A stretch of 44,965 bases of DNA, taken from assembly GCA_002688355.1 (NCBI GenBank), contig NZCT01000018.1:1-44965 (forward strand). The letters are read 5' to 3'. This document shows, one piece after another, positions 9,271 through 40,391 of the stretch. This DNA comes from an archaeon (lineage in GTDB: Archaea > Nanobdellota > Nanobdellia > SCGC-AAA011-G17 > GW2011-AR20). Numbering within the stretch: the stretch's first letter is position 1; the number at the start of each line of letters is the position of its first letter. Below the pieces are notes generated by a model. That model searched no databases and was not told the DNA's origin. It was given only the letters and a program-made list of their open reading frames with translations. A program made the position numbers and the translations under genes.

Positions 9271-9627
9271 ATGATTGGTTTTAATTATAAAATTGAAGAG
9301 GGTAAAAATATTGAAGATGAAGTTTTTAGAATATATCATTTGTTAAAACCATTATTGCCTTATGATAAAGATGATCTAAATGATAAATTTATTGAATATG
9401 AGATTGAAGGAACAGGATATTTAATTTGTGGTTTAGGCGCTGAAATTGATAGATTAGAAAATATTCCTGAAGATAGAGATGTTGGAGTTATGGACATGCA
9501 TAATAGTTTTCCTCTGCTTATTAGTTATGATATTAACCCTAATATGGACCTTGAAAAACAAGTAGTAATTACATCAATAGACTTAGACGAAAAAGAGATT
9601 AGAGAAGAGATTAATAATTATAAATAA
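9271..9627 (+). CDS. Acidic protein of unknown function
   Basis: This 118-residue protein is rich in Asp and Glu and starts MIGFNYKIEEGKNIEDE. I chose the ATG at 9271 because a TATA-like element (AAATATAAG, 9245-9253) is about 24 nt upstream. The alternative in-frame TTG at 9256 would be too close to that element. The sequence alternates strands and helices (YLICGLGAEIDRLENI, FPLLISYDINP, QVVITSIDLDEKEI), suggesting a compact alpha/beta domain. Family unknown. Confidence 0.55.
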   Translation: MIGFNYKIEEGKNIEDEVFRIYHLLKPLLPYDKDDLNDKFIEYEIEGTGYLICGLGAEIDRLENIPEDRDVGVMDMHNSFPLLISYDINPNMDLEKQVVITSIDLDEKEIREEINNYK

Positions 9628-9668
9628 AAAATAGAAATGTTTATTAGGGTATAAACTATTGAGTTTAT

Positions 9669-10136
9669 ATGGTAAAAACTTCTAAGGAAGAAATTATCTG
9701 GATTTTATTAAGAATTAGTATGGGTTGGATTTTTTTCTGGGCTTTTATTGATAAAGTATTTGGATTAGGTTATGCAACAGAAGCCGGAAAATCTTGGTTA
9801 GATGGAGTTTCTCCAACATTAGGATTTTTAAAATTTGGAACTCATGGACCTTTAAGTGGTTTTTACCAAAGTATTGCAGGTAGTGCTTTAGTTGATTGGT
9901 TGTTTATGATAGGATTATTAGGAATTGGATTGGCGCTTATTTTTGGAGTTTTCATAAGGTTTGCTTCATATAGTGGAGTAGTGATGATGTTATTAATGTG
10001 GTCTGCTTTGATATTGCCTGAACATAATCCAATTTTGGATGAACATATAATTTATGGAATAATTTTAATTGGGTTAGCAGTTACAAGATCCGGTAGAGGA
10101 TTTAGTTTGAATAAATATTTCTCTAAGAAAAAATAG
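9669..10136 (+). CDS. DoxX/DoxD family membrane protein
   Basis: This 155-residue protein has four predicted membrane helices (about 9-29, 72-95, 98-117 and 122-140). It carries the DoxD-like N-terminal pattern RISMGWIFFWAFIDKVFG followed by a glycine-rich loop (SWLDGVSPTLGFLKFG). DoxD is the membrane subunit of thiosulfate:quinone oxidoreductase, while the wider DoxX family has varied redox links. Because VKOR, a thioredoxin-like lipoprotein and CcdA follow on the same strand, a quinone-linked or disulfide-related role is inferred. Confidence 0.78.
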   Translation: MVKTSKEEIIWILLRISMGWIFFWAFIDKVFGLGYATEAGKSWLDGVSPTLGFLKFGTHGPLSGFYQSIAGSALVDWLFMIGLLGIGLALIFGVFIRFASYSGVVMMLLMWSALILPEHNPILDEHIIYGIILIGLAVTRSGRGFSLNKYFSKKK

Positions 10137-10171
10137 AAATATTTATTAACAAGTTTTTATTTTGAGTTAAA

Positions 10172-10552
10172 ATGGATAACATAAAAAAAGCAGAGTGGGT
10201 TCTTAGAATTGGAGTTGCTGGTGAGTTCTTAGGTCATGGTGTGTTTGCTTTAGGAGTTAAACAAGGTTGGATTCCTTACTTTACAAATCTAGGGTTGACT
10301 GAAGGATTTGCAGGTATAGCTTTACCCTTGATAGGTATTATGGATATAGTAGTTGCTTTGATAGTATTAGTAAAACCATATAATTTTGTACTTGGTTGGG
10401 CTACTATATGGGGATTTTGGACTGCTTTATTAAGACCTGTTTCAGGAGGTTCCTGGTGGGACTTTATTGAAAGGTTTGCAAATTGGGCAGCACCATTAGC
10501 TTTGATATACCTAAGAGGATTTCCTAAAAACTGGAAAGACTGGTTTAAGTAA
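10172..10552 (+). CDS. DoxX-like four-helix membrane protein
   Basis: This is a 126-residue membrane protein with a DoxX-like arrangement. A first helix begins KAEWVLRIGVAGEFLGHG, helices cover about 42-66 and 70-87, and a final amphipathic section contains RPVSGGSWWDFIERFANW, a motif seen in small DoxX-like proteins. It lies 35 nt after the first DoxX gene and 17 nt before VKOR, so the set is probably cotranscribed. The function is not established. Confidence 0.65.
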   Translation: MDNIKKAEWVLRIGVAGEFLGHGVFALGVKQGWIPYFTNLGLTEGFAGIALPLIGIMDIVVALIVLVKPYNFVLGWATIWGFWTALLRPVSGGSWWDFIERFANWAAPLALIYLRGFPKNWKDWFK

Positions 10553-10569: not shown

Positions 10570-11010
10570 ATGGAAGAAAAAAGAGGATTGTATATAATCT
10601 TAATTAGTTCGATTTTGGCAATTATTACCTCTGGATATTTATTAAATTTGCATTATTCTGAAACAGAGAGCTTTTGTGATGTTAGTCAAGAAATTTCTTG
10701 TGATATTGTGAATAAAAGTATATATTCTGAAATCTATGGTATTCCTGTTTCTTTACTCGGAATGTTGACTTTTATTTTTATTTCTGTACTTGTTCTATTT
10801 GCCTTGAATAATAAAAAAATATTTGGATTTGAGAAACAAGATATGTATGATTGGATTTTTTGGATTATGATTTTTAGTATATTCTTTGCTTTGTATTTGG
10901 TTTACATTGAAATATTTGTTTTATATGCTGTGTGTCCTTTATGTGTCCTTTTAGATATTTTGATAGTTATTGTTTTTGTTGTAGTAATGAAATTAAGAGG
11001 TAAAAAATGA
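10570..11010 (+). CDS. VKOR family disulfide-forming membrane protein
   Basis: This 146-residue protein is a vitamin K epoxide reductase homologue. The four key cysteines are C36 and C44 in the external loop and C122-P-L-C125 in the redox-active CxxC. The conserved Ser in SEIYGIP follows the loop pair. Membrane helices are at about 7-26, 60-79, 94-119 and 126-142. VKOR passes electrons from secreted thiols to quinones and so drives disulfide formation. It lacks the thioredoxin domain fused in many bacterial VKORs; instead a separate thioredoxin-fold lipoprotein starts inside its last codons (ATGA overlap, 4 nt). Confidence 0.9.
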   Translation: MEEKRGLYIILISSILAIITSGYLLNLHYSETESFCDVSQEISCDIVNKSIYSEIYGIPVSLLGMLTFIFISVLVLFALNNKKIFGFEKQDMYDWIFWIMIFSIFFALYLVYIEIFVLYAVCPLCVLLDILIVIVFVVVMKLRGKK

Positions 11011-11390
11011 AAAAAATATTAGTTGGATTATTTGTCTTGTTTACTATTTTTTTGGTTGGATGTTCTGGTGTGAAACACACTCAAGAATCTGTAGATGTTT
11101 TAGCAAATTGCTTAGCAGATAAAAATGTTAAGGAATATGGTGCATTTTGGTGTCCAAACTGTGCTAAACAGCAAAAAATGTTTGGCCCTTCATATAGCAT
11201 AATAAAGGAAAGAAATGTCTATGTTGAATGTGACCCTAGAGGTGATCATCAACAAGCGAATCTTTGTTTAGAAAAAGAAATACAAAGATATCCTCATTGG
11301 GAATTTCCTGATGGATCTTTTGAAATTGGAGCACAAGATTTAGAGATCTTAGCAGAAAGATCAGGTTGTGAGAAACCTATAAGAAAATAA
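11007..11390 (+). CDS. Thioredoxin-fold lipoprotein, VKOR partner
   Basis: This 127-residue protein begins with a signal peptide ending in the lipobox-like LVGC19, so it should be anchored on the outer face of the membrane. The redox motif is AFWC49-P-N-C52, followed by KQQKMFG. YPHWEF at about 95-100 holds the cis-proline. Extra cysteines are C35, C75, C87 and C121. The whole pattern matches the thioredoxin domain fused to bacterial VKOR. It overlaps the VKOR gene by 4 nt, and CcdA follows immediately (stop at 11390, next start at 11391). Confidence 0.88.
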   Translation: MKKILVGLFVLFTIFLVGCSGVKHTQESVDVLANCLADKNVKEYGAFWCPNCAKQQKMFGPSYSIIKERNVYVECDPRGDHQQANLCLEKEIQRYPHWEFPDGSFEIGAQDLEILAERSGCEKPIRK

Positions 11391-12101
11391 ATGGCAATTG
11401 ATGTTACTTGGCCTGTTGTAATAACAACTGCATTAGTAGATTCTATTAATCCATGCGCTATTGGTGTTTTAATTTTGTTAATTGGTACTTTAATTTCAAT
11501 ATCTAATAATAAGAAACGAATGTTGAGTGTTGGATTGATTTATATCGCTTCTGTTTATATTGTATATTTTTTAGCTGGAATTGGTTTGTTATTGTTTATA
11601 CAGAGGTTAAATATTGCACAACCTTTGAGTATTTTTGTTGGAGCTCTAGTAATAATACTTGGATTTATTGAAATAAAAGATTTCTTTTGGTATGGCAAAG
11701 GTTTATCTTTAAGTATTAATCCTAAGTATGTGAAGTATATAGAGAGAAAAACTAAGAGACTTACTATTCCTGCTGCTATTGTTTTAGGAGCTTTTGTTGC
11801 TGCAGTAGAATTACCTTGTACAGGTGGACCTTATTTAGCTATTACAACTTGGATAGCACAAGCACAAACACTACCAATAGTTGGTTTATATTATTTGTTA
11901 GTTTATAATTTTATTTTTGTATTACCTTTAATTGTAATAGTTTTATTAGTTTATTTTGGCGTAAAAGTTCAAAAAATACAAGAATGGAAACAAGATTATA
12001 GGAAATGGATGAGATTAGCTATTGGTCTAATTTTGATTATATTAGGAGTATTATTAATTTTAATAGCTTATAATGTAATTACCTTTGGTTTACATGGTTA
12101 A
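11391..12101 (+). CDS. ccdA: CcdA/DsbD-like thiol-transfer membrane protein
   Basis: This 236-residue protein has about six membrane helices and the two redox cysteines of the CcdA/DsbD core: C22 in DSINPCAIGVL and C143 in ELPCTGGPYL. CcdA carries reducing equivalents from cytosolic thioredoxin to outside proteins. Together with VKOR (oxidising) and the thioredoxin-like lipoprotein it makes a complete outside thiol-disulfide circuit. It is directly joined to the lipoprotein gene with no gap. Confidence 0.88.
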   Translation: MAIDVTWPVVITTALVDSINPCAIGVLILLIGTLISISNNKKRMLSVGLIYIASVYIVYFLAGIGLLLFIQRLNIAQPLSIFVGALVIILGFIEIKDFFWYGKGLSLSINPKYVKYIERKTKRLTIPAAIVLGAFVAAVELPCTGGPYLAITTWIAQAQTLPIVGLYYLLVYNFIFVLPLIVIVLLVYFGVKVQKIQEWKQDYRKWMRLAIGLILIILGVLLILIAYNVITFGLHG

Positions 12102-12144
12102 TTTATGACAAAAGGTTTATAAACTACTTCCCTATACTAAATAT

Positions 12145-12285
12145 ATGAAAATAAGGAAGAGGTTGACAAAGATATTTATAGGGTTAACTCATTTTTCTAG
12201 GAAGATAAGTTTTACATCTCCAATTACAATTTGTTTAATAGGAATAACAATATTCTTAGTTAAGAATTCTCATATATATGAATAA
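12145..12285 (+). CDS. 46-residue membrane mini-protein of unknown function
   Basis: A short ORF starts MKIRKRLTKIFIGLTHFSRK and continues with a hydrophobic segment at about residues 29-43 (ITICLIGITIFLV). A clear TATA element (GGTTTATAAAC, about 12113-12123) lies about 26 nt before the ATG, the spacing seen for the other leaderless genes here. The strongly basic N-terminus would stay in the cytosol. It ends next to the stop codon of the convergent GTPase gene. No family is recognised; the promoter spacing is the main support. Confidence 0.5.
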   Translation: MKIRKRLTKIFIGLTHFSRKISFTSPITICLIGITIFLVKNSHIYE

Positions 12286-29341: not shown

Positions 29342-31756
29342 TTATTTACCATTATCTTGAACAACTCTTGCTACTGCAACAACTTTGTCATCTTCTTTTA
29401 ATTTCATTACTCTTACCCCTTGTGTGTTTCTACCAATAACGGAAACGTCTTTAGCGCTAAATCTTATTACTACTCCTTTTTTTGTTATACACATAAGCTC
29501 ATCATCATCCATTATTGTTTTAATTCCTACAACAGGACCATTTTTGTTAGTTATTTTTATATTGGTAACACCTTTTCCGCCTCTTTTGATTAGTCTATAT
29601 TCTTCCATTAAAGTTCTTTTACCAAATCCTTTTTCTGTAATTGTTAATAATGTTGCATCTTGTTTAGCAACTTCTAGGCCCATAACAGAATCTTTAGGAT
29701 TTAATCTTATACCTCTAACACCAGAGGAATTTCTACCCATTTGTCTTGCATCAGATTCTTTGAATTTAACAGCACGACCATTCTTGCTAGCTAGGATCAT
29801 GTTAATGCCTTGAGGAATTAATTTTACTGTTACTAATTCATCTTTTTCTTTTAATTTTATTGCGTTTACTCCTGCTTTTCTTGGTTTTGAGAAGTAAGTT
29901 AATGGTGATTTCTTCATTGTACCATTTTTAGTTGCAAACAATAAGAATAGTTTTTCTGAAAATACTGGAATTGGTAGGATTGATTTTATTTTCTCATCTT
30001 CTTGTAGTTTTAATAAATTAATAATAGCCTTTCCTTTAGAGTAACGAGAACCTTCTGGAACTTTGAATGCTTTTAACCAATGGATACGACCTTTATTTGT
30101 AAAGAATAATAAATAATTGTGGTTGGAAGTTACAAATAAATGTTCTACAATGTCATCATCTTTTGTTTCTGTAGCTCTCATTCCTGTTCCGCCTCTTCTT
30201 TGTTGTTTGTACAAGTCTAGAGATGTTCGTTTAATGTAACCTTCTCTTGTTGCTGTTACTATAACATCTTCTTTTTGTATTAATTCTTCCATATCTATTT
30301 CTTCATCTTCTTGATCTAGGATTTGAGTTCTTCTATCATCCCCATATTTGTCTTTTATTTCTATTAGTTCTTTTTTAATGATGTCAAGAATCTTTTGTTC
30401 TGAAGCTAAAATAGATTTTAAGTCTTCTATTAATTTTAGTAGTTCATTATATTCCTCTTGAATTTTGTTTTGTTCTAAGGAAGTTAATCTTCTTAATCTC
30501 ATATCTAAAATAGCTTGAGCTTGTATTTCTGTTAATTTATACTGTTCAATTAATGAGGATTTAGCAATTTCTTGATCTTGTGATTCTTTTATTAATTTTA
30601 TAATTGCATCTATATTTGCTAAGGCAATTTTTAATCCTTCTAGAATATGAGCACGATCTTCTGCTTTTTTTAATTCAAATTGTGTTCTTCTTGTTACTAT
30701 TCTTTTTCTGTGAGCGATGTAATATTTTATAATTTCAAGTAAAGTTAAAGTTTTAGGTTGGCCTGCGACTAGAGCTAGGATGTTTGCTCCAAAAGTTTCT
30801 TTTAATTGTGTGTGTTTGTATAATTGGTTTAGAATAACTTCTGCATTTGCATTTTGTTTTAATTCTATGACTACACGAATACCTTTTTTATTTGACTCAT
30901 CTCTAATATCTGTTATTCCTTCTACTCTTTTATCTCTTACTAGATCTGCAATATCTTCAACTAAATATGATTTGTTAACTTGATAAGGAATTTCTGTTAT
31001 GATAATTCTATTTTTTTCATCTACTTCTGTTTTAGCTTGTACTTTTATTTTACCTTTTCCTGTTTTGTAGGCTTGTAATATTCCATTTTTACCTAAGATA
31101 CTTGCTCCAGTTGGAAAATCAGGACCTTTAATATGTTGCATCATATCTTCTGTTGTTGCGTCTGGATTGTTAATTAAATCAATAGTAGCATCACAAACTT
31201 CTCTTAAGTTATGTGGTGGAATATTTGTTGCCATACCTACTGCTATGCCGGAAGCACCATTAACTAGTAAGTTTGGAATTTTTCCAGGTAAAACTATTGG
31301 CTCTGTTGTGGAATTATCATAATTTGGAATTAATTTTACTGTGTTTTTATCTATATCTTCTAATAATTCTTCTGCTAGTTTCTGTAAACGAGCTTCTGTA
31401 TATCTTGAAGCTGCAGCAGGATCTCCATCTAAAGAACCAAAATTTCCTTGTCCTTGAACTAAAGGATATCTTAAGGAAAAATCTTGAGCCATTCTAACTA
31501 AAGAATCATAGACAGCTGTATCTCCATGAGGATGATATGATGCTAAAACTCTTCCGATAACAAAAGCTGATTTTCTAAATGGTCTATCGTGTAATAGTTT
31601 AGATTTATACATGGCATAAAGAATTCTTCTATGTACTGGTTTTAAACCATCATTAACATCAGGTAAAGCTCTTGAAGTTATAACGGACATAGCATAGTCT
31701 ATGTAAGATTCCTTCATTTCATCTTCAATTAGTTTTACTTGAATTTCTTCTGGCAT
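29342..31756 (-). CDS. gyrA: DNA gyrase subunit A
   Basis: This 804-residue protein is the cleavage/rejoining subunit. The catalytic tyrosine is Y119 in [10 protein letters not shown]. The quinolone-region residues are T80 and D84 in [10 protein letters not shown]. The beta-pinwheel C-terminal domain carries the GyrA box QRRGGTG, which marks a true gyrase able to introduce negative supercoils rather than Topo IV. Gyrase is a bacterial enzyme acquired by many archaea, including DPANN. It starts 1 nt after gyrB ends, so the two are coupled. Confidence 0.96.
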
Positions 31757-31757
31757 T

Positions 31758-33833
<2,076 letters not shown>

Positions 33834-35432
33834 TTACTCAGTTTTGCTGATTTTTAATCCCATTACATAGAGTTCATCTGCTAATGCTCTCATTGAATCA
33901 AAATTTGCAGTTGGATCTTGATGAGCTCTTCCACAAAGCTCCATAAACTCATTATATGCTATTTCTTGAGCAAGTAAATATGTTGTATATCTTGTGAATT
34001 TACTTTCATCATCTCTTACTCTTTTATAATCTGAATGACCACTATTGATATTTATTGATCCATATGTAGGATCTAATTCACTTCTTAGAGTTTGTTTTTC
34101 TATATCGAACTCTACGAAGTGTGTATTATAATTTCCAGAAATATTTCTTCTTGCTTTTCTTGTTGGCCTATTAACTCCATCTTCAGAAGGTTTTACTGCT
34201 TTTTCTCCTCCTAACCCTGGCCCTGGTTTAGGTTGAGGCCCTGGTCTAGTTCCAGTTTCTTTCTCAGGAGAAGCTATTTGATTATCATCATCAACTGTAG
34301 GCCTTACTGAATCTCCAGGATTTCCTACAATCCATGCAGCATTATGTTCTTTAAAATCTCTAAAAATAACATCAAAATTTCTTAAAATAGTGTCAGAGAT
34401 TTCTAGCTCTCTTGTTCTTTTCTCTCTTGTTTTTAATACATTAATTTGATTATTAAGATAAGCCTCTTGCTCTTTTAATGTATCTATAAATAATTGATAT
34501 CTTGTTCCTTGTCTTACTAAATTATCTCTTTGTGGATTTAATGTTAAAAAATCTTCATTAATTTCCCCTAGTAATCTTCCACTTCCCCATGGCAAATCAT
34601 CAAGTTCATCAAGTGAACTTATTGAGTTAAGAACTTTAACACCTTTATTATGATGCTTTACCTTTTCAGTTTTACCATTAGGATTAATAAATAAATATAA
34701 ATGAACATTACCTATATCAGATTCTCTATCGCTATTTGTGTATTCTATTTGAACTATTTCATCTAATACTTTTTCTCCTCTGTATTCTGCTGGTTCCACA
34801 GAAATTCTTTTTTGACGTGTTCCAATAAATCCCACTTCTGCTTCAAGAATTCCTTCTCTAATTAAAGGGGAATAGAAATCAGCTATCATATTTTTGATAT
34901 GACTAGGAGTAAAGTAACGACCTATAATATCTCTGTTTATTCCATTTAGAATTACTTCTGTTCCATGTTCAAAATCCCCAAAAGGTAAATCTCTTGCATG
35001 AACTTCATCTAACTCTGCATCCATTGAACCATTAGTCATTGTTAAATTATTAAAAAATCCATTATTACTATCAACTTGTCTTGTGTATATTTGACATGTT
35101 CTTGCACCACATGAAACATATGCATGTAACCCTAGTCCTTTTTCCCCCCTTGTAGATCTTACCTCTCTATTTGTTGAGGCACCAATACTTTGAGGTAATG
35201 TTCTTAACTTTTCATGACTCATTCCTACACCGTTATCTCTTAGAACTACTGTTCCTGAATTTTTATTAACAAAAATTTTTAAGTTTATTGGATCATTTCC
35301 TAATCTATTCACTGCATCTACGCTGTTTGATACATATTCTTTAAATGCACTTGGAGGAGTACTATACATTTGCTGAATCTGTCTTATAATGAAAGAAGGA
35401 TCTGCAATTTCATAACTAATACGTTCTGTCAT
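33834..35432 (-). CDS. MORC/MutL-like GHKL ATPase
   Basis: This 532-residue protein has the GHKL ATP site: N-box KEYVSNSVDA (31-40), D66-N-G-V-G70 and RGEKGLGLHAY (95-105), and HGT at 156-158. A second domain with GRLLGEINEDFLTLNPQRD (285-303) matches the S5-type transducer end of MORC/Hsp90-like proteins. A coiled segment (315-345) and a flexible Pro/Gly linker (395-410) follow, then a C-terminal domain (435-532) of unknown type. No nuclease motif is seen. It is preceded by an HTH protein gene 8 nt upstream, and gyrB lies 180 nt downstream. Prokaryotic MORC-type ATPases are known from restriction-like operons; a DNA-clamp role is inferred. Confidence 0.82.
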   Translation of the reverse strand: MTERISYEIADPSFIIRQIQQMYSTPPSAFKEYVSNSVDAVNRLGNDPINLKIFVNKNSGTVVLRDNGVGMSHEKLRTLPQSIGASTNREVRSTRGEKGLGLHAYVSCGARTCQIYTRQVDSNNGFFNNLTMTNGSMDAELDEVHARDLPFGDFEHGTEVILNGINRDIIGRYFTPSHIKNMIADFYSPLIREGILEAEVGFIGTRQKRISVEPAEYRGEKVLDEIVQIEYTNSDRESDIGNVHLYLFINPNGKTEKVKHHNKGVKVLNSISSLDELDDLPWGSGRLLGEINEDFLTLNPQRDNLVRQGTRYQLFIDTLKEQEAYLNNQINVLKTREKRTRELEISDTILRNFDVIFRDFKEHNAAWIVGNPGDSVRPTVDDDNQIASPEKETGTRPGPQPKPGPGLGGEKAVKPSEDGVNRPTRKARRNISGNYNTHFVEFDIEKQTLRSELDPTYGSININSGHSDYKRVRDDESKFTRYTTYLLAQEIAYNEFMELCGRAHQDPTANFDSMRALADELYVMGLKISKTE

Positions 35433-35440
35433 TTTATTTT

Positions 35441-36028
35441 TTACCTTTTTGTTTTATAATCTACATCTAACATCCATTCATTAAGAGGATCTTCTTTGAA
35501 ATAAGTATTAAATAATGTAATCAAATATCCTGCATCTCTTTTGTCTATTACTTTTCCAAGTTGTTGCCTATCTTTTAATGAAGCTTTTTTTAAATCATCT
35601 AGAGATTCTATTAAGCCATAAAATAAATCACTAATTCTATTAAGTTTTTCAGAATAAGTTTCTTCTGGTGAAATTGTCTCTCTTAAATTTTTTATTTCTG
35701 CTTTTAAATTTTTTTCTAAATCATTTAATCCTTTTAAAATATCTTCGTTAGGCTGTGTTAATCTAGAGCTTAGTGTTTTTGTTTCAAATCCCTCATCCCT
35801 AAATTCTTCTTGTTCATTATATCTTTGTCCCAGATAATCATCTATTTTATTTTTTTTCTCTAGTGGCATCTCAGTTGAATTTGCACTAAAATATCTTCGG
35901 ATCGTTTCACCACTTTCACCAAGGTCTTCTGAAAATAATTTCCAAGATAACTTATTTTTTTTCATATATGATCTTACTTGAAGCTTATAATCTTCAGAAA
36001 CTGGTACTTTTTCTATTTTTTTTGCCAT
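35441..36028 (-). CDS. HTH and coiled-coil partner of the GHKL ATPase
   Basis: This 195-residue protein has a lambda-repressor-like helix-turn-helix at about 15-50 (NKLSWKLFSEDLGESGETIR), then a linker and a long coiled-coil region (LKGLNDLEKNLKAEIKNLRE). The C-terminal part is helical with TLFNTYFKEDPLNEW. It is the first gene of the operon, 8 nt before the ATPase gene. A GCTTTTATAAC element (about 36046-36056) lies about 22 nt before the start. It may recruit the ATPase to DNA or repress the operon. Confidence 0.7.
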   Translation of the reverse strand: MAKKIEKVPVSEDYKLQVRSYMKKNKLSWKLFSEDLGESGETIRRYFSANSTEMPLEKKNKIDDYLGQRYNEQEEFRDEGFETKTLSSRLTQPNEDILKGLNDLEKNLKAEIKNLRETISPEETYSEKLNRISDLFYGLIESLDDLKKASLKDRQQLGKVIDKRDAGYLITLFNTYFKEDPLNEWMLDVDYKTKR

Positions 36029-36147
36029 TTGTTTAAATTTTATTTGTTATAAAAGCGATGAATAAGCTTTAAAATCTTATCTTTTTTAATAATTCTAGAG
36101 TAATAACACAGCAATAAACTTATATATTTATCTATTTCATAAAAACT

Positions 36148-37041
36148 ATGGAAAACTTAACAGAAAAATTAAATAGACTTGCAAGCGAGAGACAAGAATT
36201 AGAAGAAGGAGTAAATACTAACTGGCAAAATACCTTACCAGAATATGTTGAAACTTTAAGATCATACGTAAGTTCTTTAACAGTAAACACAGATAGATCT
36301 GTTCAAAATCACGGAATAAATCTAGAAAAAGAAACAAAAAAATCCATGGAAAAACATTCACAATTAATTGATGTTTTAAGTACATACGCTCCTAAACAAA
36401 CTTCTGATACAGAAACAAAAGAATCAAAATTAGCAGCATTAGCAGAAGCAACTGATGAAGATCTTGAAACTATAAAACGAAGTCCTGTAATGGACATTAC
36501 AATAACGTATGAAGGTACTATAAATAGAATCAAGGAAGAAGCAGAACAATTTAGAGAAAGAGGATATGCAACTTCAACTGAGTTAATTCCTTTATTAGGA
36601 TTAGATACAAAGAATAACCGTAGCCAAAGAGCAGTATATGCACAAGCAATTAAAAATCTAAATGACATAGGATATTTTGTAAGTATTACTAAAGATGCTA
36701 ATGGAAGTACATATTTCTTAGCTGCAAATGAAGAGCAATTGGATGTAGATGCAATAAAAACAGATATTGCAGCAGGTTTACCAAATGACGATATTACGAA
36801 AAAACATGGTATAACAGATTACTCAATTAGAGCATATAAAGCTCAAATTACTAGAAAGAATAAAAGACAAGAGATGATAGCAAAATCTAAATTAGATAAT
36901 AAAGCAATAAGAGAAGATATTGAATCAGGTTTACCAAATGATGAACTTAAAGAAAAATACCCTGATTTAAAAGAACCATCTATTAGAGCATTTAGAGCTC
37001 AAATTACTAGATCAAAAAAAAAGTTGGAAACGAAAGAATAA
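36148..37041 (+). CDS. Coiled-coil protein with winged HTH and two tandem HTH modules
   Basis: This 297-residue protein has a helical/coiled N-terminus (1-110), a winged-helix-like domain (about 132-195), and two copies of a module of about 38 residues: residues 201-238 (DIAAGLPNDDITKKHGI) and 252-290 (DIESGLPNDELKEKYPDL), each ending in AxxAQITRxxK. One further copy is in the protein at 38369-39715. It is divergent from the HTH-ATPase operon, with a CTTATATATTT element about 25 nt before its ATG. DNA binding is likely; the system role is unknown. Confidence 0.7.
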   Translation: MENLTEKLNRLASERQELEEGVNTNWQNTLPEYVETLRSYVSSLTVNTDRSVQNHGINLEKETKKSMEKHSQLIDVLSTYAPKQTSDTETKESKLAALAEATDEDLETIKRSPVMDITITYEGTINRIKEEAEQFRERGYATSTELIPLLGLDTKNNRSQRAVYAQAIKNLNDIGYFVSITKDANGSTYFLAANEEQLDVDAIKTDIAAGLPNDDITKKHGITDYSIRAYKAQITRKNKRQEMIAKSKLDNKAIREDIESGLPNDELKEKYPDLKEPSIRAFRAQITRSKKKLETKE

Positions 37042-38368: not shown

Positions 38369-39715
38369 ATGGGAATGGAATATTTAAATAAAAAAACTAG
38401 AGAACTAGAAAATTTAGTAAAACAAGTAGATGAAACTAAATTAGAAATTAAAGCTGCTAGAGAAGAAGCTATTAAACAATTAGATACTCAATATGAAGAG
38501 GCAACTAGTAATTTACAAGTTATCTTACATAATGCTGAAGTTTCTGGAATAGATGTTGATACTGCGGCAAAAGAAGAAATTCAAGTATCACAATATGCTA
38601 AAGGAAGAAAACAATTTTTTGCAGATTTAAGAGAATTTATAGATAATTATGGAATACCTATAGAGCCAACTCCTTTAACTCAAGAGGAAAGAAAAGAAGT
38701 TAAAGAAGAACAAGAGGAGAAAGTAGATACATCTTATGATAAACCTGCAACTAAAGAATTAGACAAAGATAGTTTATATGCTGATATGAGAAGTGGTATG
38801 CCTAAAGAGGATGTTATTGAAACTTATGGTATTACTGAAAATCAATATACACGTTTTAAAGCTCAATTAACAAGAGAAGATAAAGGAATAAAATCATATA
38901 AAAGTTCTCTTGATGATAAAGAAAAGGAAGAAGTTAGAGATGCAATTGTTTTATTGTATTCAGAGAATGAACCTATAAATAGTACTAATATCTCAAAACT
39001 TTTAGGCATTGGGAAACAAGGCAAGAAAGTAAGTATTGGAGTTTATTTAAAAGAATTAAATGAAGGGGGCTTACTTCAAGAAACTAACGATAAGAAGAAG
39101 AATGTTACAGAATATAATTTAAACGAAGACAAAGGAGATTTTGAAATATCATTAATAACTGATGAAGAAAAAAGAAAAAATTATACTTCTAGTAATGCAA
39201 ATAAAGGACCAGATGAGATATCAGATATTGTTGATTCTAAAGAAATGGAAAAACCATTAGATCTAAAAACTAGAATTGAATATTCTGCATTTTTTGAAGA
39301 ACCTGCATTTTTAGTTGATCAAATAAAAAGCGAATTGGGAGAACACATTGATGAGATTCATGATATCCTTGTAAATGGATTCGGTTATAAATTTACTCAA
39401 CCTGGAAATGGTGGATCTGGTGTATATCAAGTTCCAATGAATGAAGAGAAAGAAATAATTAATATGACTGAACAAGAGAGAAATAGAAGAGTGCGTGTTG
39501 CATTCCGTGATTGGAAAAAAGGAATAGCATCAACGCAAAAGAAATTATTATCAAAAATAGGTTTAGAATATGTTAAAACTCCTTCAAAAAGAAGTCCTCA
39601 TGGAGAGATAAGAAGAATAGATAACCATAACAGATCAACCCCAACAGCTGGCTCAACTGGTGATTGGAGATGTGGTAGAAACATGGCTTCAGATATAATT
39701 AAACTCTTAGATTAA
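38369..39715 (+). CDS. Multi-domain coiled-coil/HTH protein
   Basis: This 448-residue protein has a long N-terminal coiled coil (about 5-55), the same HTH-like module as the 36148 gene (133-171: DMRSGMPKEDVIETYGI ... FKAQLTRE), a winged-helix domain (about 185-250: INSTNISKLLGIGKQGKKVS), an acidic linker, and a C-terminal domain (388-448) with KRSPHGEIRRIDNHNRS and WRCGRNMASDIIKLL. The last part recalls HicA/dsRBD-like small folds, weakly. A TTTATAAAG element (38340-38348) lies about 25 nt before the ATG. It probably acts with the neighbouring DNA-binding proteins. Confidence 0.65.
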   Translation: MGMEYLNKKTRELENLVKQVDETKLEIKAAREEAIKQLDTQYEEATSNLQVILHNAEVSGIDVDTAAKEEIQVSQYAKGRKQFFADLREFIDNYGIPIEPTPLTQEERKEVKEEQEEKVDTSYDKPATKELDKDSLYADMRSGMPKEDVIETYGITENQYTRFKAQLTREDKGIKSYKSSLDDKEKEEVRDAIVLLYSENEPINSTNISKLLGIGKQGKKVSIGVYLKELNEGGLLQETNDKKKNVTEYNLNEDKGDFEISLITDEEKRKNYTSSNANKGPDEISDIVDSKEMEKPLDLKTRIEYSAFFEEPAFLVDQIKSELGEHIDEIHDILVNGFGYKFTQPGNGGSGVYQVPMNEEKEIINMTEQERNRRVRVAFRDWKKGIASTQKKLLSKIGLEYVKTPSKRSPHGEIRRIDNHNRSTPTAGSTGDWRCGRNMASDIIKLLD

Positions 39716-39773: not shown

Positions 39774-40391
39774 ATGGATAGAATAATTAAGTTATTAATC
39801 GTATCAGAATTATTTTTATTTACAGGATTTTCTTTAATTGATCCTTTTTTAGCTGTTTTTGTTAAAGAAGATTTGGTTAATGGAAGTTTGATTGCTGCAG
39901 GATTTGCTACAACTTTATTTTTAGTTATAAAATCTGTTGTGCAATTGCCATTTTCAAAATATATTGATAGCCATAGGGATAAATTAAGATTTTTGATCAT
40001 TGGATCTTTGATTGTAAGTACTGTTCCATTTATTTACATATTTGCAACTAGAATTGAGCATATTTATATTGCTCAGATTATTAGAGGTGTTGGTGCTGGT
40101 TTAGCTGTCCCAACATGGTTAGGTTTGTTTACAACACATATTGACAAAGGTAAGGAAAGTTTTGAATGGAGTATTTATAGCACTTCTTTAGGAATGGGTA
40201 TGGCAGTATCAGGATTAGTTGGAGCTACAATAGCTTCTTTCTTAGGTTTTAAAATTACATTTATCATTGTTGGAATATTGGCTTTAATAGGTTCTAGTAT
40301 ATTATTTAAACTTGAGGTACAGGAACATAAGAAAAAAGGCAAAGAAGTTGGTGATATTATGATTAAAAGACATAAAATGCACCATCCTTAG
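39774..40391 (+). CDS. Half-size MFS-type membrane protein
   Basis: This 205-residue protein has six predicted membrane helices and looks like the N-terminal half of a major facilitator transporter: SLIDPFLAVFVKEDL, then the loop FSKYIDSHRDKLRFL (motif A-like) and IRGVGAGLAVPTWLG. Normal MFS proteins have 12 helices in about 400 residues. The stop is followed immediately by the CCA enzyme gene on the other strand with a 4-nt overlap, so no second half is missing through frameshift within view. It may act as a dimer. Confidence 0.72.
   Translation: MDRIIKLLIVSELFLFTGFSLIDPFLAVFVKEDLVNGSLIAAGFATTLFLVIKSVVQLPFSKYIDSHRDKLRFLIIGSLIVSTVPFIYIFATRIEHIYIAQIIRGVGAGLAVPTWLGLFTTHIDKGKESFEWSIYSTSLGMGMAVSGLVGATIASFLGFKITFIIVGILALIGSSILFKLEVQEHKKKGKEVGDIMIKRHKMHHP

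Follow-up and report, generated by a model that had tools for sequence, protein, structure and literature searches.

GHKL ATPases of the prokaryotic MORC and paraMORC groups are the closest described relatives of the locus analyzed in this study. Prokaryotic MORC and paraMORC1-5 proteins are encoded in R-M operons, combine N-terminal GHKL and S5 domains with a variable C-terminal domain and are patchily distributed, with methylases, helicases or R-M genes located near part of the loci. MORC proteins are united by the S5 motif GhXhhpXXRhl and are accompanied by an SFII helicase gene in about 70% of loci; DNA looping was proposed for MORC and paraMORC proteins (Iyer et al. 2008, PMC2292703). VcSduA, a GHKL Shedu protein of the paraMORC3 type, consists of a GHKL ATPase, a clamp-like middle domain and its own PD-(D/E)xK nuclease, and acts against phages only when both activities are intact (PMC12137116). 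Moreover, a survey of 7,747 archaeal genomes from 2026 found R-M and CRISPR-Cas systems to be underrepresented in DPANN archaea (PMC12988326).

The window, i.e., the whole stretch of 44,965 nucleotides analyzed, corresponds to contig C18 of a genome of 962 kb with a completeness of 97%. The genome represents a Woesearchaeota-like DPANN archaeon, and its nearest named homologues were found in Candidatus Woesearchaeota MAGs. Features of the locus are compiled in Table 1. Component A is located directly upstream of B with an intergenic gap of 8 nt, as described in the original prediction. Opposite A, across the 119-nt spacer, D1, the 67-aa ORF, C and D2 constitute a divergent operon. Both this divergent A-B/D1-C layout and the order of the six genes (B, A, D1, 67-aa ORF, C, D2) are intact in L049, a locus originating from a second genus of the family.

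Table 1. Features of the GHKL ATPase locus and its flanks (positions within the window).
Feature	Position	Strand	Basis or remark
gyrB-gyrA	29342-33653	-	one flank of the A-B pair
Component B, GHKL + S5 ATPase, 532 aa	33834..35432	-	Pfam, AlphaFold2, Foldseek, motif alignment
B C-terminal domain, about residues 436-532	33837..34127	-	AlphaFold2, alignment
Component A, HTH (by family evidence) + helical/coiled-coil, 195 aa	35441..36028	-	translationally close to B
Divergent-operon spacer, 119 nt	36029..36147		A/T-rich; by eye, TATA-like stretches facing each gene
Component D1, 297 aa, coiled-coil + two tandem HTH-like repeats	36148..37041	+	orthologue in L049
Small ORF, 67 aa	37098..37301	+	kept in L049, 50% identical
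Component C, 335 aa	37302..38309	+	class-I-methyltransferase-like C-terminal domain, residues about 141-335
Component D2, 448 aa, coiled-coil + HTH repeat + C-terminal domain	38369..39715	+	502-aa orthologue in L049
Half-length MFS gene	39774-40391		Pfam MFS_1; opposite flank

Component B was assigned to Pfam HATPase_c_3 with 38.3 bits (cut-off 25), and the GHKL residues E32, N36, D39, D66, G70, G96, K98 and G157 are identical across all 12 aligned homologues, which bears out the complete set of GHKL motifs noticed originally. In the AlphaFold2 model (mean pLDDT 75), the GHKL and S5/transducer domains extend until about residue 300, followed by a helix at residues 310-363 and a Pro/Gly linker that is disordered between residues 367 and 427 (pLDDT under 50). 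Residues 436-530 form a separate alpha+beta domain, for which pLDDT values mostly range from 81 to 93, with two short blocks at 62-69. The transducer-like second domain, the linker and the distinct C-terminal domain of the original prediction were thus recovered in the model. Foldseek matched the fold of B over about 370 residues to Hsp90/TRAP1 (1e-14) and, at rank 41, to the MORC relative SMCHD1 (2e-12). Within the C-terminal domain, N463 and H466 are invariant in 12/12 aligned sequences (INxxH domain). This domain obtained neither a Pfam match nor a significant match in a PDB sequence search, a nuclease was not recognized in it by either search, and judged from its sequence it appears to be novel.

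Comparison with curated models clarified what B is not. The name MORC/MutL given at the outset was not upheld, as the MORC S5 motif is missing in 12/12 homologues and B reached 11.7 bits with the MutL model TIGR00585 (cut-off 180). Likewise, orthology to TopoVI-B is ruled out (TIGR01052, 23.2 bits versus a cut-off of 380.7), a true TopoVI-B being encoded separately in the genome on contig C25 (576 bits). Models for Hsp90 and GyrB orthologues were far below their cut-offs, and the genome possesses its own GyrB. B shares the GHKL + S5 module with TopoVI-B, GyrB, Hsp90 and MutL but misses all of their curated cut-offs by far. The best NCBIfam match, to the BbrUII/HgiDII restriction enzymes (NF050001; 7.7e-8), covers residues 21-170, i.e., the GHKL part only, and reaches 31 bits compared to a cut-off of 550; the remainder of the protein is unrelated. 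In a match from Rhizobium (L061), mostly the GHKL domain is in common with B. PADLOC reported nothing for B and very weak matches only for its homologues.

Of the features described for MORC proteins, B and its 12 homologues possess the four GHKL ATP-binding motifs, and modeling and Foldseek place an S5 domain after GHKL in B. An SFII helicase neighbor was observed at one locus (L017) among the scanned neighbors of the 12 B loci. Since GHKL and S5 domains are present and the MORC motif is absent, B fits the general description of paraMORC proteins and is regarded as paraMORC-like. It differs from the individual paraMORC types: the ExxxH trait of paraMORC2 occurs in the window protein only and is not conserved in the 12 homologues, Pfam detected neither the C-terminal PD-(D/E)xK domain (DUF4263) of paraMORC3/GHKL Shedu, the invariant residues being N and H, nor the TIR domain of paraMORC4, and the HxH trait of paraMORC5 is absent from the C-terminal sequence by direct reading. 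Thus, B resembles paraMORC and prokaryotic MORC proteins in its N-terminal architecture, its patchy occurrence and the R-M-type genes near part of its loci, but lacks the MORC motif as well as an REase, TIR or HxH C-terminal domain. Instead, it features the INxxH domain and an obligate HTH partner, and the window module contains the C family in place of a known methylase. Similarly, the GHKL ATPase and clamp-like middle domain of VcSduA have counterparts in B, whereas its nuclease, part of a system shown to be anti-phage, has none recognizable in the window module.

Phage rIIA/rIIB, where a GHKL protein also adjoins a partner gene, offers another comparison. Phage rIIA matches the GHKL part and the fold of B, rIIB comes next after rIIA in both phage loci examined, and a search of a viral structure library with B returned Hsp90-like, topoisomerase and rIIA proteins. 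These observations could suggest an rIIA/rIIB-like pair of viral or element origin, in which a mobile element retains a GHKL protein and its HTH partner to counter or exclude other elements. However, sequence similarity ends with the GHKL domain, the C-terminus differs, rIIB was not matched and the gene order is reversed relative to A-B. Furthermore, a full-length homologue of B was not found in the viral contigs, plasmids or phages searched, and no phage gene was recognized among the scanned window proteins, so that this origin is considered improbable.

Component A immediately precedes B in all 12 loci, which come from Woesearchaeota, Nanoarchaeota and Aenigmatarchaeota. Gaps between the two genes range from -86 to +8 nt, and the genes mostly overlap or are separated by at most 8 nt, with the exception of one locus containing Ns in A. 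In ten examined loci encoding C without B, no homologue of A was present (0/10). Based on the arrangement at all 12 loci, A and B constitute an obligate pair. The HTH domain is weak in the window's own A protein (HTH_3, E=0.058 with Pfam) but was detected in 5/11 members of the A family (best 2.5e-5), and A is accordingly described as an HTH protein by family evidence; in addition, a C-terminal motif DxGYL...W is conserved. Regarding the proposal of a DNA-clamp ATPase directed by its HTH partner, coupling of a clamp-type GHKL ATPase to an HTH gene holds in 12/12 loci, whereas placement of B by A is a proposal. Between the window and L049, identities amount to 42% for A, 58% for B, 61% for C and 78% for GyrB. 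The lower conservation of A compared to B and C in these two gyrB-linked loci may be that expected for a fast-changing recognition part, and may also have other causes.

Because the module adjoins gyrB-gyrA, a role as gyrase accessory factor was considered. Adjacency to gyrB applies to the window and L049, but GyrB is encoded in 13/13 genomes of the family compared to three for B, and in G002 about 98 kb separate the B module from gyrB. Distribution largely refutes this role, which is accordingly rated as highly improbable. In other members of the family, the upstream side of gyrB holds different genes, and B was found in 9/145 relatives. A conserved housekeeping context of homologues, which would have spoken against the original reading, was looked for and not found, the occurrence being patchy and non-housekeeping. 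Two further observations concern gyrB loci. In G010 (L079 1882-7847), an HNH/NUMOD protein, a 617-aa protein with a PD-(D/E)xK-like stretch recognized by eye and a 174-aa protein that has a domain in common with D2 are encoded upstream of gyrB. GyrB matches stop near query residue 431 in G012 (C24:18520-21696, L072) and G003 (C5:220-3393, L074) or 499 in G005 (C21:13254-14735, L075), inside open frames of 1070-1146 aa; they restart about 1.25 kb further on in G012 and G003, which suggests inteins or similar inserts.

Component C is located across the divergent promoter, outside the segment that the original prediction covered (33834-36028). Its C-terminal domain is characterized by the motifs YLGLEGxNFxSYL ... 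PExNxRxxNIMxSI ... FNxVxLDYxG. The AlphaFold2 model, of low confidence (overall pLDDT 48), shows the strand/helix order of class-I methyltransferases, and the best 50 PDB matches obtained by Foldseek with this pLDDT 48 model are nearly all SAM methyltransferases. A weak match to Pfam Methyltransf_35 (E=0.035) falls exactly over this domain in a C homologue. None of the curated methyltransferase cut-offs was reached, and the glycine-rich motif I is non-canonical (variant GLEGPxFGSY). Taken as modeled, the domain resembles class-I methyltransferases in a variant form, and methyl transfer would be its predicted activity. C as a partner favors a role of the module that is non-degradative or modifying.

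Members of the C family adjoin A-B in 8/12 loci. In a sample of 371 genomes of the phylum, B occurs in nine and C, counting strong matches, in 15; both occur in five, where they are always adjacent (Fisher p=6e-6, relatedness of genomes being ignored). In AU tests on groups picked after identities had been seen, one group of window/L049/L050/L051/L052 was rejected for the C tree (p-AU 0.002) and one group of window/L049/L016/L056 for the B tree (p-AU 7e-5). This conflict between the B and C trees would mean that C joined A-B more than once and is suggestive of repeated recruitment.

Where C is missing, other enzymes were found: a SNF2-helicase/methyltransferase fusion in L017, and an N6_N4 methylase together with a MamI endonuclease adjoining A in L057. 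The partner slot thus appears to be occupied elsewhere by a helicase/methyltransferase fusion or a MamI-type R-M pair. Furthermore, a nuclease-like gene (NERD) is located about 2.7 kb downstream of B in L050. The expected R-M and helicase neighbors therefore exist for some homologues, but R-M neighbors occur in few B loci only, and the window's own module yielded no match to a nuclease, a helicase or any curated R-M family; the original observation that no nuclease is recognizable there still stands. An endonuclease with its cognate methylase, as in R-M systems, was accordingly found only beside some homologues and not in the window module.

The divergent operon encodes two further likely DNA-binding subunits. 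D1 and D2 share the repeat SIRAxKAQITR, and in L108 the product of a gene adjacent to C contains it as well (1.6e-6). Searched for as a general partner, the repeat yielded weak matches only beyond the window and the loci L049 and L108. The C-terminal domain of D2 is common to the 174-aa protein beside gyrB in G010 (L079 5287-5811); this domain of about 90 aa is HicA/dsRBD-like by eye and has no Pfam match. A coiled-coil protein encoded in L016, L017 and L056 looked alike by eye and was rejected as a fifth common component, its similarity not being significant. Genes of two other loci are also of note. In L050, a 314-aa protein of Ntn-hydrolase/proteasome-beta type by eye, with no Pfam match, is encoded straight after B (9567-10511), and a 409-aa archaeal protein combines sigma-70 region 4 with a bacterial RNA polymerase alpha C-terminal domain (10942-12171). 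In L051 (6040-6930), weak matches to Neur_chan_LBD/memb (pentameric ligand-gated ion channel) were obtained in a DPANN archaeon.

What was established directly for this locus is its gene content and pairing, the conservation of motifs, the co-occurrence of components and the patchy distribution. The locus represents an as yet undescribed DPANN version of the paraMORC/R-M theme. We judge the chances to be about even that it is an accessory R-M-like module, with A-B as the core, an HTH-guided GHKL clamp, and with exchangeable partners, likely serving to tell foreign from own DNA; clamp action, methyl transfer and the defense role are what we infer here. In such a module, A would place or restrain B on DNA by means of its HTH and helices. 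B would dimerize upon ATP binding and close as a DNA clamp, comparable to paraMORC, VcSduA and topoisomerase ATPase modules. A partner enzyme, most often C, would then act on the DNA held by the clamp, the likely purpose being to distinguish foreign from own DNA and to act on it. C could mark self DNA, mark invading DNA or modify something else. Since the window version is devoid of a recognized nuclease, the DNA may end up modified or silenced, or else cut by an unlinked or unrecognized nuclease.

The same absence of a nuclease from the window module, the presence of several HTH proteins and the occurrence of C beside unrelated neighbors in the ten loci without B would also be compatible with nucleic-acid modification or gene regulation. 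DNA or RNA would then be methylated by C, while A and the D proteins would bind DNA and B would remodel the complex; the module would control how the cell expresses its own genes and would not serve defense. The patchy distribution, R-M genes beside other loci, the variable site on the gyrB side and the low identity of A compared to GyrB argue against it, and such a regulatory role is regarded as rather unlikely. A similarly low probability is assigned to the most far-reaching version of the R-M-like module, namely a DPANN-specific, nuclease-free system against foreign DNA in which a GHKL clamp guided by the HTH protein and served by plug-in enzymes, a new methyltransferase-like family among them, would mark or silence invaders as a prokaryotic analogue of MORC-type silencing.

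A GHKL module that recurs in DPANN archaea and combines an undescribed methyltransferase-like family with an HTH adaptor as obligate partner would enlarge their known repertoire. Moreover, a version lacking a recognizable nuclease would allow a test of whether MORC-like clamps can act on foreign DNA in a non-cutting manner, a point that bears on the origin of eukaryotic MORC silencing.
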